From: Eubacterium sp.
Lineage (GTDB): Bacteria > Bacillota > Clostridia > Lachnospirales > Lachnospiraceae
NCBI GenBank assembly: GCA_024681515.1
Contig: JAILAR010000161.1
Coordinates: forward strand, 1 to 38,213
DNA length: 38,213 nt
Direction of reading: 5' to 3'
The notes beneath the pieces are model-generated. The model did no database searches, had not been told where the DNA came from, and saw nothing but the letters and a program-made list of their open reading frames with translations. The position numbers and the translations under genes were made by a program. Shown here in pieces: positions 2,696 through 16,371 of this stretch; the stretch's first letter is position 1, and the number at the start of each line of letters is the position of its first letter.

Positions 2696-3250
2696 TTATT
2701 TTTTATCCTGCTTCTTTTCATTCAGGAACATGAACATGCTCCTTCCTTCAAACTTTGCTGCCTTTTCAACCACGGAAACATCCGACAGCTTCTCAGCAAA
2801 ATCATCCAGGATCCGCTTGCTCTGATTCACATACGCAAGCTCACGTCCACGGAAACGCAACGTAACCTTGACACGGTTTCCTTTCTCCAGGAATTTCCGT
2901 GCCTGCCCCACTTTCGTGTTCAGGTCGTTTTCGTCAATATTGGGTGACAGACGAACTTCCTTCACTTCAATGGAGCGCTGCTTCTTCTTCGCATCCTTTT
3001 CCTTCCGCGTAAGCTCATAACGGAACTTACCATAATCGATGATCTTGCACACCGGCGGATTTGCATTCGGAGAAACACGCACCAGATCCAGTCCTGCTTC
3101 TTCCGCAAGCTGAAGAGCCTCGCGAGTGCTCATGACACCCAGCTGCCCGCCTTCGGCACCGATCACACGAACTTCTCTGTCGCGGATCTGTTCGTTGATC
3201 GCATACTTATCCGTATTGTCTCTTCTGTTATCGTTACCCTGACGTTCGAT
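2696..3250 (-). CDS. infC: Translation initiation factor IF-3 (AUC start)
   Basis: IF-3 binds the 30S subunit, checks the start codon and fidelity of initiator tRNA, and keeps subunits apart. The N-domain core INEQIRDREVRVIGAEGG starts upstream of the first ATG in frame (3166), so starting there would cut off conserved residues. Reading back gives an AGGAGGG site, then 7-8 nt, then an in-frame ATC at 3250; no ATG, GTG or TTG lies at a suitable distance. This gives 184 residues, near the family length. Interdomain linker and C-domain follow (YGKFRYELTRKEKDAKKKQ, KVTLRFRGRELAYVNQ). Rare start codons (AUU in E. coli) are a known autoregulatory device for infC, so AUC here fits. Confidence 0.93.
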   Translation of the reverse strand: MERQGNDNRRDNTDKYAINEQIRDREVRVIGAEGGQLGVMSTREALQLAEEAGLDLVRVSPNANPPVCKIIDYGKFRYELTRKEKDAKKKQRSIEVKEVRLSPNIDENDLNTKVGQARKFLEKGNRVKVTLRFRGRELAYVNQSKRILDDFAEKLSDVSVVEKAAKFEGRSMFMFLNEKKQDKK

Positions 3251-3381: not shown

Positions 3382-3412
3382 AAAAAAAGTGGATCGTCGA
3401 GAATCCACTTTT
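3382..3412 (-). terminator. Attenuator-like terminator in the infC leader
   Basis: On the minus strand AAAGTGGAT and ATCCACTTT pair around an 8-nt loop, followed by a T-run (TTTTTTT, 3382-3388 side). It lies about 130 nt before infC and about 165 nt after the start of transcription, so it would end transcription before the genes. Confidence 0.75.
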
Positions 3413-3616: not shown

Positions 3617-5305
3617 TTATGAGGAAAATGTTCCCAGCACGGTCAGATCCTCTGCCTCGTAGCCGATCTCTCCCAGCAGCTTCTGCACATTCCGGTCAGA
3701 AAGCTTACCTTCAAAACTGACATAGAAGCTATATTCCCACTTCTTTTTCAGAGACGGACGGGATTCGATCCGGGTCATGTTGATGGAATTCCGATTGATG
3801 ATCCCCATGATCTGATAAAGAGCACCCACACGGTGCGGTGCGATAAAGCAGATCAGGACATTATCCGAACCTGTCAGGACTCTTTTCTCCTTCGTGATGA
3901 TCACAAACCGGGTTGCATTATCCCTCGTGAAATTAATACGGCGGGCCAGCACTTTCAGGTTATACAGCTCCGCTGCACGCTCACTGGCGATTGCCGCCCG
4001 GGTCACATCCTTTGATTCCATGACACGTTTTGCGGCAAGTGCCGTATTGCTTACCGTCTCCGTCCCAAACTGGTGGGATTCGATATATTCCTTACACTGC
4101 ATGATCCCCTGCGGATGGGAATACACTTTCTTAATATCCGACAGCATGGCATTCGGAAGTCCCAGCAATGCATGCTCGATATCAAGAACCACTTCATCTA
4201 CGATGGTCACGCCCGAATTCCGGATGATATCATAATTTCCGCTGACAAATCCGGCCGAACTGTTCTCCACCGGGAGCACGCCATAGTCCGCCTTCCCCGA
4301 TGCCACCGCTTCCGCTACTTCATCAAAGGTCTTCACATTCATCAGATCCGCGCCGTCCCCGAAGAACTTCAGAGCCGCTGCTTCTGCATAAGCACCCGGA
4401 ACACCGGCGTAGCAGACACGCATGACCTCCCGCTCCAGATCTTCCGTAAAATGATAGTCCGAGACATCATAGGGCTTTGCATTCGGTTCCTTAAGCCGAA
4501 GCTCCTCCAGCAGCTGAATGATGGTTTTCCGACTGATCGGATGCACTGCATGCGGTGCGATCTGCGCCAGCGGTTCCAGAACAAATGCGCGGCGCTCCAT
4601 TTCCACATGAGGGATCAGAAGTCCTTCCTCGCGGATCACTGCGTCATCATACAACAGGATATCCAAGTCCAATGTCCGGGGGCCCCAATGTACGATCCTT
4701 TTCCTTCCGGCTTCCTGCTCGATATCATGGAGCACGGAAAGCAGTTCCCGGGGAGAATACAGTGTTTCCAGTTCCACGGCTCCGTTCAGAAAATCCGGCT
4801 GTTCTACGGGACCGAAGGGTTCCGTCTCTATATAATCCGCAGAGCGGATCACACGGATATAAGGGTCCTTTCCCAGCTGCTCGATTGCCTGGTCCAGATA
4901 CTGCCTACGGTCTCCAAGATTGGATCCGATACCGATATATACCGTATGCCTTCCGCGTTCTATCGTAACGGAAACCGTATCAAAGGGAAGTCCGATGGGC
5001 GCCTCGGGCTTATCCACACGTACCTGCACGCTGCGGATCTTCGTGTATTTCAGCAGGATCTCCGAAGCAACGGACTCCGCCACCGCCTCGATCAGATTCC
5101 ATTTTTCACCGGTAACGACCTGCTCGATCGTATGCGCCACCTCGTCGTAACTGACCGTCTCCAGAAGGTCATCCGACATGGACGACGGGCGAAGATCCAG
5201 ATACAGCCGTGCAGAAACCAGAAACGACTGGCCCGTCTCCTTCTCCTCATCAAATACGCCGTGGTAGGCGTAGATCTTTAAATTCCTGATCTCAATAACA
5301 TCCAT
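3617..5305 (-). CDS. Trifunctional fusion: dihydroneopterin aldolase - HPPK - prephenate dehydratase
   Basis: One uninterrupted frame of 562 residues encodes three enzymes (positions counted from the ATG at 5305). Residues 1-118 are FolB: IYAYHGVFDEEKETGQ with the catalytic Glu, SYDEV, and the catalytic Lys in VRVDKPEAPIG. Residues 122-275 are FolK (HPPK): YIGIGSNLGDRRQYLDQAI, EQPDFLNGAVELET, and the metal/ATP motif GPRTLDLDILLYDD. Residues 296-470 are prephenate dehydratase: YAGVPGAYAEAAALKFFG, GVLPVENSSAG, NFTRDNATRFVII. Residues 480-555 are its ACT regulatory domain, with HRVGALYQIMG and TRIESRPSLKKKWEY, the Phe-binding GAL and ESRP motifs. No chorismate mutase domain is present. FolB-FolK fusions are known; I know of no PheA fused to them. 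ATG 5305 follows GGAG by 6 nt and is preferred to the ATG at 5317. It lies downstream of folC-HD. Confidence 0.93.
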   Translation of the reverse strand: MDVIEIRNLKIYAYHGVFDEEKETGQSFLVSARLYLDLRPSSMSDDLLETVSYDEVAHTIEQVVTGEKWNLIEAVAESVASEILLKYTKIRSVQVRVDKPEAPIGLPFDTVSVTIERGRHTVYIGIGSNLGDRRQYLDQAIEQLGKDPYIRVIRSADYIETEPFGPVEQPDFLNGAVELETLYSPRELLSVLHDIEQEAGRKRIVHWGPRTLDLDILLYDDAVIREEGLLIPHVEMERRAFVLEPLAQIAPHAVHPISRKTIIQLLEELRLKEPNAKPYDVSDYHFTEDLEREVMRVCYAGVPGAYAEAAALKFFGDGADLMNVKTFDEVAEAVASGKADYGVLPVENSSAGFVSGNYDIIRNSGVTIVDEVVLDIEHALLGLPNAMLSDIKKVYSHPQGIMQCKEYIESHQFGTETVSNTALAAKRVMESKDVTRAAIASERAAELYNLKVLARRINFTRDNATRFVIITKEKRVLTGSDNVLICFIAPHRVGALYQIMGIINRNSINMTRIESRPSLKKKWEYSFYVSFEGKLSDRNVQKLLGEIGYEAEDLTVLGTFSS

Positions 5306-5318
5306 AAAAAACTCCATT

Positions 5319-5407: not shown

Positions 5408-7216
5408 TTAGCATAGGATTGACCGGTTTTTACGCTCTTCCGGCCAGTAACAGCTTTCCCTTGCGTCGCACAGAAAACAATTCCGAGACAGTTTGTCCGC
5501 CCGATACAGGATCCCGGCCAGAAGCGCACTGTCTTCCTGTGGGTTCTTATGTGCACGGATTGCCTCGCAAATGACTTTGCGCTCCGCTTCCGTATATCCG
5601 GCACGGATCAGAACATCCTCCGCAACTCCGGCTCCTGCCGCATGGTGTCCCAGTTCCTTCTCCTCCGGCGTATACCTTCCGATATCATGCAAAAGCGATG
5701 CTGCATAAACCACATCTTTCCGCACCGTACATCGGTTTTCCAAAGCCAGGATGTACGCGATCCGGGCAACGGAGATCGCATGTCCGAACCCATGTCTGCA
5801 ATATTCGCGGTCATACTCCGACTCATATATTTTCTTAATCTGTTTTTTGTAAAATGCATCATTGAGAATCCGAGTTACGCGATCCATTTCCAACGCTCCC
5901 CGCGCTTTTATGAGACCTCCCAGGAAGGTAAGGGAACCGCAGGCCACGATCACATCCTCTTCGGAAGACTCCTGAAGCGCCTTCCCTGCCGCTGAAAGTG
6001 CGCTTTCCTCACAGCTTACAGGATCCGTCTCCTGCATGATCGGTTGCTCCGTCTCCGCGCAATATGCAAGGATCCGGCTTTTCAGTTTTTCTCCAGCCAG
6101 TGCCCGAGGACTCTCCGGTGTAAATACATGGATCCGCTTTGCCAGCGGCACCAGGGCATCGATCATCGTATCCACTTCTTTATCCGCCAGCACTCCCAGA
6201 ACAAATGTGATCTTTCTGTCCCTGAAAAACCGACGAATCGTCTCCGCCAGCCGCAGCCATGCATCCCTGTTATGAGCGCCGTCCACGATCATCATGGGAT
6301 GTGTATCAAACACCGTAAACCGTCCCTGCCAATCCGCTGCTGCCAGTCCCTCACGGATCTGCTCCTGCGTCAGCTGCGGAAGTCCGAACTGCCCTGCCCG
6401 CTTGTTATAAACCTCCAAAGCCATAAGTGCGGTGATCGCATTCTCCAATGCCACATCTCCCGGCATCCGGATATGATACGTTTCGTTACGAAATGTGAAA
6501 TCCGTGCCGAGAATATCCTCCCGCTGAACGCTGAGTTCTTCCATGGGCGTAAATACGATTCCTTCTTCCCCCATGTCCGGGAACGGATATGTGCGGACCA
6601 CGTTCCTCAGTTCCTCATCCATCGGTGCAGTTACAAGTACATCTCCCGGCTTAACGATCCCCAGCTTTTCATTCAGGATCTTCTCTCTGGTATCTCCGAG
6701 AAACTGCATGTGATCCATACTGACAGAAGCCAGAATGTCCAAAACCTTCTGAGGGATCACATTCGTCGCATCCAGGCGCCCTCCCATGCCACACTCCACC
6801 AGCATGACATCGCAGTTTTTTCTGCGAAACAAAAGGAAGGCCAGTGCCGTCTCGATCTCAAACGACGTGGGACTCTGCGGCATCGTCTCGGCCACTGCGC
6901 GGATCTCCTCCATGCAGGACACAATATCCTCTTCCGAGACCATTTCCCCGTTAATATGCCATTTTTCCCGGTAGTCCAGAACGGCAGGAGACAGATATCT
7001 TCCGACCCGCATCCCTGCCTGCAGCATGGCGTGCTCCACATAGGACATGATGGTCCCTTTTCCGTTGGTTCCTGCGATATGCAGCGCCGGAACCGCTCCT
7101 TCCGGATGTCCGAGCCCCGAGAGAAGCTCTAAAATCACGTCCAGCCCCGGCATAATGCCGAGGCTGTTTTTACTTTCGATATAGGACAATGCATCTCTGT
7201 AGTCCATTTCCCTCAC
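5408..7216 (-). CDS. Fusion of folylpolyglutamate synthase (FolC) with a C-terminal HD-domain hydrolase
   Basis: The 602-residue frame has two parts. Residues 1-440 are FolC/Mur-ligase-like, adding glutamate to folates: P-loop IAGTNGKGT (47-55), ECGMGGRLDATNV (141-153), the LNEKLGIVKPGD segment and the C-terminal-domain motif VDGAHNRDAW (311-320). Residues 450-602 are an HD phosphohydrolase: H475/H479 in CRHGFGHAISVAR, ASLLHDIGRY (H510, D511), LGHHAAGAG, AIRAHKNP and D574 in YRADKLS, ending with a Cys cluster (C580, C583, C589; NCFLCDARESCYW). Stand-alone HD proteins with this Cys tail occur in clostridial folate operons as I recall, so the fusion points to a folate role for the HD part; its substrate is unknown. 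The start overlaps the deacetylase stop by 4 nt (ATGA), showing translational coupling. Confidence 0.92.
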   Translation of the reverse strand: MREMDYRDALSYIESKNSLGIMPGLDVILELLSGLGHPEGAVPALHIAGTNGKGTIMSYVEHAMLQAGMRVGRYLSPAVLDYREKWHINGEMVSEEDIVSCMEEIRAVAETMPQSPTSFEIETALAFLLFRRKNCDVMLVECGMGGRLDATNVIPQKVLDILASVSMDHMQFLGDTREKILNEKLGIVKPGDVLVTAPMDEELRNVVRTYPFPDMGEEGIVFTPMEELSVQREDILGTDFTFRNETYHIRMPGDVALENAITALMALEVYNKRAGQFGLPQLTQEQIREGLAAADWQGRFTVFDTHPMMIVDGAHNRDAWLRLAETIRRFFRDRKITFVLGVLADKEVDTMIDALVPLAKRIHVFTPESPRALAGEKLKSRILAYCAETEQPIMQETDPVSCEESALSAAGKALQESSEEDVIVACGSLTFLGGLIKARGALEMDRVTRILNDAFYKKQIKKIYESEYDREYCRHGFGHAISVARIAYILALENRCTVRKDVVYAASLLHDIGRYTPEEKELGHHAAGAGVAEDVLIRAGYTEAERKVICEAIRAHKNPQEDSALLAGILYRADKLSRNCFLCDARESCYWPEERKNRSILC

Positions 7217-8610
7217 CTGTCATCATCACTGTTCTCATTTTGCCGGGACGCAGCCTCCATAGCCTCACGTCTGGCTTTATCAGCCTCCAGTGCCGCCTGC
7301 TCCGCCTTCTGCTCTTCCTCCAGCTCCTTTGCCGTTTTCCTGTGATGGACCGGAGTGGTATTCTCATCGATCGGAAGCAGTACATACCCCTCTTCCCGAA
7401 GGGTATCGATCAAATGCGGAAGCGACTCTGCGGTTGCCGGGCAATCCTTGAAATCATGCATCAGCACCACGGTAGCGCCGGAATTATTATGTACATACCG
7501 AAGCACATTATCCTCCAACTGCTCGGCCGTATAGCCGGAACCGGACGAATCTCCGTTAGAGGCATTCCAGTCAAAATAGGTATACCCTTCTTCTTCCAGC
7601 CAGGCGATGCAGTCATCCACCGGAACATCGGAAACCCGGTTGCTGCTGCCGCCCGGGAACCGGTACAGTTTCACATCCTGCCCCGTCATATCCTTCAGCA
7701 GGTCATGCACAGTCTGCACGTCATTCTGAAAGCTTTCCAGATCCGCGTAGATATCGCTGTATACATGACTGACGGAATGAATTCCAAGAGTATGCCCTTC
7801 CGCCGCCATCCTGCGGATCACAGCCTGTCTGCTCTTATCATCGATCACCATGAAAAATGTAGCTTTGACATTTTTCTCCTTCAGCACATCCAGAATGGCT
7901 GCCGCATCATCCGACGGGCCGTCATCAAATGTGAGATAAACCCTTTTTTCCTCAGGAACCGTAGCCGGATCAATATCAGTCGCTTCCGTATCTGCCTCCG
8001 GATCTTCCGTAAGCTCTTCCGAAACACCCTCAGAGGTCTCCGTTCCGTCTGCCTCTGTTCCTGCCTTGCCGGCCTTATGCAGAACTGTTCCCTTGTCTTC
8101 CCGGTCACGTTCCAGAGTGGCTTTTACATCCACCTCCGTAGTCTCATCCTCAGTAGACTGCTCCGCCAGCATCCGTTCCTGACGTTTGCTGTTTAAATCT
8201 TCCCGGAGCTGCTCGATCTCGTCCTTCATACCGTGCATCTTCGTAAGCAGGATCAGACACAGGATCGTCGGGATCAGGAACATCAGGACCAATGCAACCA
8301 GGATCGCTTTTTTCAGGCGATTCACACTTGCCCGGTTATACTCTTCCTCCTCGGCCTCTTCATCCTCGTCCCAGTCGGAATCCTCGGATGCACGCGGTGC
8401 ATAGAAGGAATGCTCCCGAAGGACTTCGCGGATCGGGTTCTCAGCCTCTGCATACGATGCCTCTGCCACAGATTCCTCTGCATACGATGCCTCAGCCACG
8501 GATTCCTCTGCCACAGATTCAGCAGCCTGTTCCTGCACAGGTACTTCCATAGTATTCGTTATCACAGGATTCACTGATGTATGTGATTTTCCTCTTTTTT
8601 TCTTACTCAA
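7213..8610 (-). CDS. Membrane-anchored polysaccharide deacetylase (NodB domain)
   Basis: The protein has a cytoplasmic N-terminal tail with a short repeat (ESVAEASYAEESVAEASYAE), an acidic stretch, one transmembrane helix (AILVALVLMFLIPTILCLI), a short coiled coil (MKDEIEQLREDLNSK), a Ser/Thr/Glu-rich stalk, and an extracellular NodB domain. The domain shows motif 1 VYLTFDDGPSDDAA, motif 2 HTLGIHSVSHVYSD, motif 3 YRFPGGSSNRV and later motifs FDWNASNGDSS and VVLMHDF. Such enzymes remove N-acetyl groups from peptidoglycan or other cell-wall glycans. The C-terminus is a charged coiled tail (EEQKAEQAALEADKARREA). TTG at 8610, 9 nt after GGAGAG, is the most likely start; an in-frame GTG at 8631 is the alternative (472 residues). 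It is the first gene of the folate operon. Confidence 0.9.
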   Translation of the reverse strand: MSKKKRGKSHTSVNPVITNTMEVPVQEQAAESVAEESVAEASYAEESVAEASYAEAENPIREVLREHSFYAPRASEDSDWDEDEEAEEEEYNRASVNRLKKAILVALVLMFLIPTILCLILLTKMHGMKDEIEQLREDLNSKRQERMLAEQSTEDETTEVDVKATLERDREDKGTVLHKAGKAGTEADGTETSEGVSEELTEDPEADTEATDIDPATVPEEKRVYLTFDDGPSDDAAAILDVLKEKNVKATFFMVIDDKSRQAVIRRMAAEGHTLGIHSVSHVYSDIYADLESFQNDVQTVHDLLKDMTGQDVKLYRFPGGSSNRVSDVPVDDCIAWLEEEGYTYFDWNASNGDSSGSGYTAEQLEDNVLRYVHNNSGATVVLMHDFKDCPATAESLPHLIDTLREEGYVLLPIDENTTPVHHRKTAKELEEEQKAEQAALEADKARREAMEAASRQNENSDDDR

Positions 8611-8723
8611 TTCAAAGATCTCTCCAAACACACCAATATTTTGCGTTTTCCTTTATTCCGACCACTATGGGTCGTAAAATCAGAAAATGCGCCCGTAACC
8701 CCGGACGCAATTTCAAAATACGC

Positions 8724-8732: not shown

Positions 8733-8795
8733 CGTTTTATGAATATTTGTTTTTCAACCCCATTTCCTACATTATGCGGGAAAACCCCTGCTCTG

Positions 8796-9155
8796 TCAAC
8801 CCTTCTTCATGGAGAAATAGGGGTGCATTTTCCCTACCATTTCGTCATATTGCTGATACATCCGCTGGACACTGTTTTCAAGGAGATAATAGTGCATGCA
8901 GTAGGGGATCAGGAGAACAAATAGCATTACGATCAGCGGCAGGAGCATGAGGATCTCGCTGATCACATAGGCCAGAATACACATCACGGTACATAACGCC
9001 ACCAGAATAAAGACCAGCAGATGCACCAGCCGTTCATGCGCAAAGAACTTGATCTGATTCAAATGCAGCGCGGTTTCCCGTTCCCAGTCCCGCTCTTCAT
9101 CACTTGCCAGAAGCCCGTCAATATATTCCAGATATGCAAGGATCCGCTTCTTCAT
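8796..9155 (-). CDS. Small two-helix membrane protein of unknown function
   Basis: The product is 119 residues. An amphipathic N-terminus (MKKRILAYLEYIDGLLASDEERDWERE) is followed by two adjacent hydrophobic helices (LLVFILVALCTVMCILAYVI and ILMLLPLIVMLFVLLIPYCM), then a cytoplasmic tail with NSVQRMYQQYDEMVGKMHPYF. I do not recognise a named family. An AGGAG site lies 6 nt before the ATG. It stands 60 nt downstream of the glycerophosphodiesterase gene in the same direction and is probably transcribed with it. Confidence 0.75.
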   Translation of the reverse strand: MKKRILAYLEYIDGLLASDEERDWERETALHLNQIKFFAHERLVHLLVFILVALCTVMCILAYVISEILMLLPLIVMLFVLLIPYCMHYYLLENSVQRMYQQYDEMVGKMHPYFSMKKG

Positions 9156-15986: not shown

Positions 15987-16324
15987 GTCGAGCAGGACAG
16001 GTGATCGCGGCTGGCTAAAACCAGGTGAGGAAAGTCCGGGCTTCACAGGGCAGGATGCCGGATAACGTCCGGCGGAGGCGACTCCCGGGAAAGTGCAACA
16101 GAAATATACCGCCGGCCTCGGCCGGTAAGGGTGAAATGGCGAGGCAAGAGCTCACCGCTGCCCTGGTAACAGGACAGGCTCTGTAAACCCCATCCGAAGC
16201 AAGACCAAATTTGAGCCACAGGGCGGCCCGCTCTGCTCATGGTAGGTTGCTTGAGCCGTATGGCAACATACGGTCTAGATAGATGATCACCCACGACATA
16301 ACCCGGCTTATCGTTCTGCTCGAC
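15987..16324 (+). ncRNA. rnpB: RNase P RNA, type A
   Basis: The catalytic RNA of RNase P, which removes tRNA 5' leaders. Conserved blocks are gaggaaagtccgggc (about 16026-16040), acagaaatataccg, gggtgaaatggcgaggcaag, taaaccccatccgaagcaag and the 3' tagatagatgatcac. The ends pair as helix P1: gtcgagcagga at 15987 with tctgctcgac ending at 16324. A T-run follows directly (16325-16329) and serves as terminator. Length is about 338 nt, smaller than E. coli. The open frames across this stretch are shadows. Confidence 0.95.
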
Positions 16325-16371
16325 TTTTTATATCATTCCGCAATTCTCGCATACACAATTCCTAATGATCT

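Follow-up and report, generated by a model that had tools for sequence, protein, structure and literature searches.

A folB-folK-pheA Gene Fusion Common to Most Sampled Species of One Gut and Rumen Genus

The Fusion Gene and Its Neighbourhood

The stretch of DNA analysed here, referred to below as the window, is 38,213 nucleotides long and comes from Eubacterium sp. (Lachnospiraceae; contig JAILAR010000161.1). On its minus strand, at 3617..5305, lies a folB-folK-pheA(PDT-ACT) fusion gene that consists of one open frame of about 562 aa. The first ATG of the frame, at 5317, would give a slightly longer ORF (3617-5317, 566 aa); the ATG at 5305, which was also the choice of the initial annotation, is the likelier start because GGAG is present just upstream (by eye). 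The chain reads FolB (dihydroneopterin aldolase, DHNA; 4958..5296, PF02152, residues 8-120), FolK (HPPK; 4553..4939, PF01288, residues 127-255), a 23-residue linker that is the probable fusion joint (4424..4492), the catalytic domain of prephenate dehydratase (PDT; 3884..4417, PF00800, residues 301-478), and an ACT domain with GAL and ESRP motifs (3620..3844; Pfam residues 492-548), all encoded on the minus strand.

In Pfam scans of the window's protein, FolB scores 128 bits (cut-off 31.8), FolK 136.7 (cut-off 25.7), and PDT 198.9 (cut-off 25.2), while ACT scores 22.2 and is under its cut-off of 27. The NCBIfam equivalogs give 114.8 for FolB (TIGR00525, cut-off 72.15), 145.5 for FolK (TIGR01498, cut-off 54.1), and 219.2 for PDT (NF008865, cut-off 219, a narrow pass). 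FolB followed by FolK on one chain is the arrangement of a bifunctional DHNA-HPPK; Pfam found no CM_2 (chorismate mutase, CM) match in the protein, which so lacks the N-terminal AroQ of a P-protein. An AlphaFold2 monomer model built with 20 sequences has a mean pLDDT of 82, with 73-87 in the linker blocks, and a pTM of 0.52, which leaves the relative placement of the two halves unfixed.

Directly upstream of the fusion gene and co-oriented with it in what appears as a folate operon is a gene for FolC fused to an HD domain (minus strand, 5408..7216). G031, G008, G025, G053, and G058 carry the same FolC-HD fusion, as does the window's clade. One published suggestion is that HDIG proteins in folate clusters (FolQ2) could be the missing DHNTP pyrophosphatase (PMC1971073), and the FolC-HD fusion adds to the case for it. 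Just upstream of folC-HD is what looks by eye to be a polysaccharide deacetylase gene (minus strand, 7213-8631), which may head the same transcript as folC-HD. A promoter-like site at 8771-8799 has 11 of 12 consensus bases, and such sites are no more numerous across the scan than in shuffled sequences. On the 3' side of the fusion gene are a terminator-like hairpin (minus strand, 3385..3412; the scan gave six such sites against an average of 5.5 in shuffles) and, further downstream, an infC-like gene named by eye (minus strand, 2696..3166). The window also contains a class A RNase P RNA (plus strand, 15989-16326). No Rfam riboswitch or T-box was found at gathering score in 10 sources, the window included. 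Folate genes are not missing from this organism, since folP- and folE-type genes, not seen beside the fusion gene, are present elsewhere in the genome.

Distribution of the Fusion

FolB, FolK, and PDT share one stop-free frame in 50 of the 61 genomes of the genus, and in 49 of these the frame extends to ACT, the exception being G033, where it ends at the contig end. Two of the fused genomes, G004 and G006, are each a single contig. Because FolB to ACT sits in a stop-free frame, the match-internal stops recorded in some genus genomes must be at match ends, as the coordinates show for G031 and G058. The initial annotation had described the frame as unbroken while worrying about a stop or frameshift masked near residues 275-298; the homologues that share the open frame answer the worry.

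Eleven genus genomes are without the full fusion frame. FolBK stands alone in five (G003, G013, G017, G021, and G035); in G037, pieces of FolB and FolK occur along with a CM-PDT; in G041, the match is divided between two contigs, whose pieces cover 4-214 and 202-565; G039 and G049 have fragments only; and G036 and G042 have no match to the fusion protein. All 19 of the named loci found are fused, including those of Lachnospiraceae AC2029 (on a 3.86 Mb contig), NE2001, and LC2019, which carry no MAG label; the others include metagenome assemblies, four of them titled rumen or omasum.

In a family sample of 298 genomes from 280 genera, where the figures rest on the best matches listed, a FolB-to-ACT match is found in at least five genomes of at least four genera (G000 and G015 of the window's own genus, G116, G286, and G282). 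In a class sample of 393 genomes, only the window's own genome has such a match among the matches listed, where, as in the family, genomes were sampled and a very divergent fusion might escape the best matches. The single frame is found in 53 genomes overall. The fusion is common to most sampled species of one gut and rumen genus and is not a sequencing error. Frames of 664-696 aa in five relatives (G309, G194, G255, G197, and G065) were considered as possible in-frame read-through and rejected, since ordinary stops separate folBK from CM-PDT in the DNA.

Conserved Residues and Copy Number

The fused proteins were aligned residue by residue (the window's and 52 others). Invariant in all 53 are FolB H19, E25, Y57, and K103, of which the last three are presumably the catalytic Glu, Tyr, and Lys; FolK HWGPRT, D217, and D219, which together form what we take to be the functional motif of HPPK (HWGPRT..D.D); and PDT E351, N352, S400, H401, Q403, N424, T425, T469, and F471, Thr469 presumably being the functional Thr of the TRF motif. 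Around these residues there is some play: the TRF motif is TKF in 34 proteins and has R in 19 with Thr469 constant, the second position of DLDIL is I, L, or M, and GAL is GSL in 11, whereas ESRP is found in all 52 proteins whose sequence reaches ACT. The claim that FolB, FolK, and PDT occur on one chain with their key residues intact is thus upheld by the Pfam matches and by the constancy of FolB E25 and K103 and of the PDT Thr. As for the ACT domain with GAL and ESRP that had also been proposed, the motifs are there, but GAL is variable and the Pfam score falls short. On this conservation, the fused protein is probably trifunctional, with DHNA, HPPK, and PDT all active. Its PDT-ACT part aligns to structures titled Phe-bound or Phe-inhibited, and the PDT part is probably inhibited by Phe through ACT, by analogy with family members.

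The window's genome has a single match to the whole fusion protein at E ≤ 1e-3, and its only PF00800 match is in the fusion gene. By PF00800, the fused PDT is the sole full-length PDT in 47 of the 50 fused genus genomes, three of which (G001, G002, and G032) also have a partial PDT; in the other three (G015, G016, and G047), a divergent PDT is present besides the fused one. Divergent PDT paralogues with frames of 320-373 aa were seen at L136, L137, L138, L139, and G037:C27 (genomes G013, G015, G016, G037, and G047), and the two of them scanned at L136 and L138 have no Pfam ACT match.

The Whereabouts of Chorismate Mutase

The absence of CM from the fusion had led the initial annotation to place this step elsewhere in the genome, and it is indeed there: the single CM_2 match is a stand-alone frame of 96 aa on another contig (G000:C30). 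CM_2 is found in 57 of the 61 genus genomes, including all 31 with a completeness of 90% or more and a contamination of 5% or less. A CM separate from the fusion is present in 46 of the 50 fused genus genomes, the exceptions (G018, G022, G025, and G052) being 58-73% complete, and CM is also present in G116, G286, and G282.

Besides the stand-alone form, CM occurs in proteins of about 190 aa that end in an ACT-like part (below the Pfam cut-off in G061) and in proteins of about 290 aa in which CM and ACT flank a shortened, PDT-like middle, recognised by Pfam in G001, G002, and G032 and by eye in others. The CM-ACT forms of these three genomes can be matched to G003's intact CM-PDT on either side of a gap (37-46% before it and 60-69% after), which suggests that, where a fused PDT exists, a second pheA has lost its dehydratase. 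Frames of 285-315 aa with this layout, the shortened middle being PDT-like by eye, were observed at L155, L157, L161-L163, L177, L178, L186-L191, and L196. Such CM-ACT proteins are candidates for chorismate mutases under Phe regulation and may descend from the P-protein by loss of the dehydratase.

A survey of PDT frames in 23 family genomes, which went by frame length, gave at least 370 aa in 11, 324-359 in five, 282-307 in three, a fusion in three, and none in one. All 11 genomes with a frame of at least 370 aa also have a separate CM-type match, so a spare CM permits fusion but does not compel it. A strict rule whereby a separate CM-ACT exists only where PDT lacks CM is unsupported by this survey.

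Adjacency and the Fusion Joint

Among 32 unfused family loci, which were chosen by FolBK score only, a CM-PDT pheA directly follows folBK in seven and lies within 4 kb of it in six more (one on the opposite strand); in the remaining 19, no PDT was found within some 5 kb of folBK, so that the adjacency is not universal. Further folBK/CM-PDT neighbours were found in loci selected for that co-occurrence. The initial annotation had stressed that fusion puts the folate and phenylalanine steps under the same expression; shared expression need not stem from the fusion, because folBK and pheA already adjoin in those seven loci. An intermediate-like state is seen in G061, where folBK overlaps a CM-less PDT gene (282-aa frame) in another reading frame.

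The fused linkers have 22-25 residues in 53 of 53 proteins, and the CM-PDT linkers 17-19 in 23 of 23, after three of 26 CM-PDTs (G003, G013, and G017) in which CM abuts PDT had been dropped from the count. A pattern chosen after viewing the linkers (an aromatic residue, then five of any kind, an aliphatic one, and another 4-5 residues before PDT) is present in 48 of the 53 fused and 22 of the 23 CM-PDT linkers, the shuffled means being 1.7 and 0.8. The fused linker thus resembles the inter-domain linker of CM-PDT and is the probable joint. Its near-constant length might point to some geometric constraint that the reading favoured below would not account for.

Repeated Origin, Loss, and Exchange

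In a quick PDT tree of 85 rows, a single clade (SH-aLRT 99, starred) unites 51 fused PDTs, and those of G286 and G282 are among the CM-PDTs. A careful PDT tree of 47 rows, with 19 of the 53 fused proteins, gives the main fused clade a bootstrap of 56% and an SH-aLRT of 100%. Forcing all the fused rows together in the latter tree costs 56.5 log-likelihood units, and a single origin of all the fusions is rejected by the AU test (p=0.0029), which was applied with the quick tree already known. The fusion therefore probably arose at least three times from adjoining genes, as far as these phylogenies and gene orders indicate.

A careful FolBK tree (34 of 99 rows) places unfused lineages among fused ones: G021 pairs with fused G033 (98/94) within a fused group (100/100), G013 is nested among fused lineages (100/99), and the closest partner of G003/G017 is fused G059 (99/97). 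G035 has no settled position by FolBK. A clade of fused FolBKs only is rejected (AU p=8e-55), as is leaving out G021 alone from an otherwise mixed clade (p=1e-6). The PDT half of G059 groups with G004 and G020 (100/98), far from the place of its FolBK half, and G030 and G051 are also placed differently by the two trees, which suggests that halves were exchanged or recombined between species. The loci with discordant halves are L094 (G059, the clearest), L080 (G030), and L076 (G051).

A later loss of the fusion is well supported by these trees in at least G021 and G013. For G003/G017, loss of PDT is likely at first sight, but the discordance of G059 means that they may never have been fused. 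Tblastn at E 10 near folBK in G021, G003, G017, G013, and G035 detected no PDT remnants, giving only matches to the ACT query at E ≥ 1.4. In G021 and G017, where no PDT part stands, the genes after folBK are infC-like and rplT-like (named by eye), as is the case downstream of the window's fusion. The PDTs of G021, G003, G017, and G013 constitute a separate starred clade, so that in these genomes another PDT would serve.

Interpretation

The reading that we favour, at a probability of roughly 0.8, is of a trifunctional enzyme with three independent sites and no channelling, which would have arisen by deletion within a folBK-pheA operon and been maintained as the sole copy of its parts. The folate operon would have ended in folBK-pheA, and, in the simplest scheme, one deletion would have removed both the stop codon of folBK and the CM domain of pheA, with the CM-PDT linker left behind as the joint. 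Such a deletion could be tolerated because CM is also encoded elsewhere (stand-alone, with an ACT-like part, or as CM-ACT around a shortened PDT), and the fusion could be retained because the cell usually has no other copy of its parts; it is most likely a by-product of operon adjacency. The DHNA, HPPK, and PDT reactions share no substrate, so channelling is not expected, and we infer that there is no cross-talk between the FolBK and PDT parts. PDT-ACT enzymes work as dimers or tetramers. FolB is a ring, a tetramer or octamer, with active sites between subunits (PMC9937910). Combining the two, the fusion should build a larger particle.

A different explanation, akin to the allosteric influence that the initial annotation had thought possible, is that Phe at ACT also tunes FolB or FolK and so matches folate, a consumer of chorismate via PABA, to the supply of Phe. 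In its fullest form, an ACT dimer would relay Phe to the FolB/FolK oligomer and thereby set the share of chorismate between Phe and folate, an arrangement evolved at least three times by FolBK replacing CM. The support for at least three origins, the seven of 32 unfused loci in which folBK and pheA adjoin, the linker of 22-25 residues in 53 of 53 proteins, and the pLDDT of 73-87 in its blocks could all be taken this way. However, the parts are without a shared substrate, the pTM of 0.52 leaves domain placement unfixed, and FolBK stands alone in G021 and G013, nested in fused groups, with a PDT from a different lineage; that near relatives of fused genomes could lose the PDT half argues against a tight folate-Phe dependence. 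Regulatory coupling is therefore improbable, in the simple and in the full form alike. Were Phe shown to act on FolB or FolK, the syntheses of aromatic amino acids and of folate would be linked directly in a rumen-associated group.

Still less probable is that one gene makes two proteins, with PDT freed by internal initiation or proteolysis. At the PDT boundary, the window reads GGGAGGTCATG (by eye) and has a Met codon (ATG), but a Met within four residues of that boundary is found in just three of the 53 fused proteins (GTG/TTG not counted), which makes a conserved internal ATG start unlikely, and the linker is predicted with fair confidence. Finally, the fusion of two genes by an assembly or base-calling error, conceivable for a 197-contig assembly, is ruled out for practical purposes by homologues sharing the open frame, which recurs in 50 genomes of the genus, including two single-contig ones, and also in genomes from three other genera.

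The fusion joins enzymes of two pathways without a common substrate, and it would mislead any annotation of function based on fusion partners. Living relatives preserve examples of adjacency, intermediate-like states, repeated fusion, and subsequent loss, and the sole-copy catalytic domains show where the function went.

Comparison with Known Systems

The initial annotation knew of no FolB-FolK-PDT combination, and no description of this architecture was found in the open-licence papers searched, mostly by title and the start of the abstract. The word prephenate does not occur in the text of a comparative genomics study of folate (PMC1971073), nor do FolK and dihydroneopterin in that of a fusion survey (PMC4921024). 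The architecture is therefore common within one genus yet without a published description in the literature searched; the component enzymes are ordinary, and it is their combination that appears new in these sources.

The N-terminal half is close to the bifunctional DHNA-HPPK of Streptococcus pneumoniae (2cg8), to residues 1-268 of whose 270 residues 5-273 of the fusion align (E 7.7e-59) and whose fold matches the model (TMt 0.92); 2cg8 is without the PDT-ACT part. The C-terminal half (residues 301-564) matches the PDT-ACT of Chlorobium tepidum (2qmx, L-Phe inhibited according to its title; E 2.5e-49, TMt 0.88), with TRF and ESRP common to both; 2qmx is monofunctional, whereas the fusion adds FolB-FolK N-terminally. 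With the P-protein (AroQ-PheA, CM-PDT), the fusion protein has in common PDT, ACT, and a like inter-domain linker, but has FolB-FolK in place of CM; by tree and gene order, the P-protein is the probable ancestor. Yeast Fol1 (2bmb), matched by residues 125-277, also has folate enzymes on one chain, in a layout that we take to be FolB-FolK-FolP, so that its third enzyme, FolP, would be the next folate step and not PDT. A CM-PDT-prephenate dehydrogenase fusion has been described in Archaeoglobus and Ca. Huberarchaea (PMC11237513, PMC1173090). There too PDT is part of a multi-enzyme chain, but its partners all belong to the aromatic pathway, whereas here two of them are folate enzymes.
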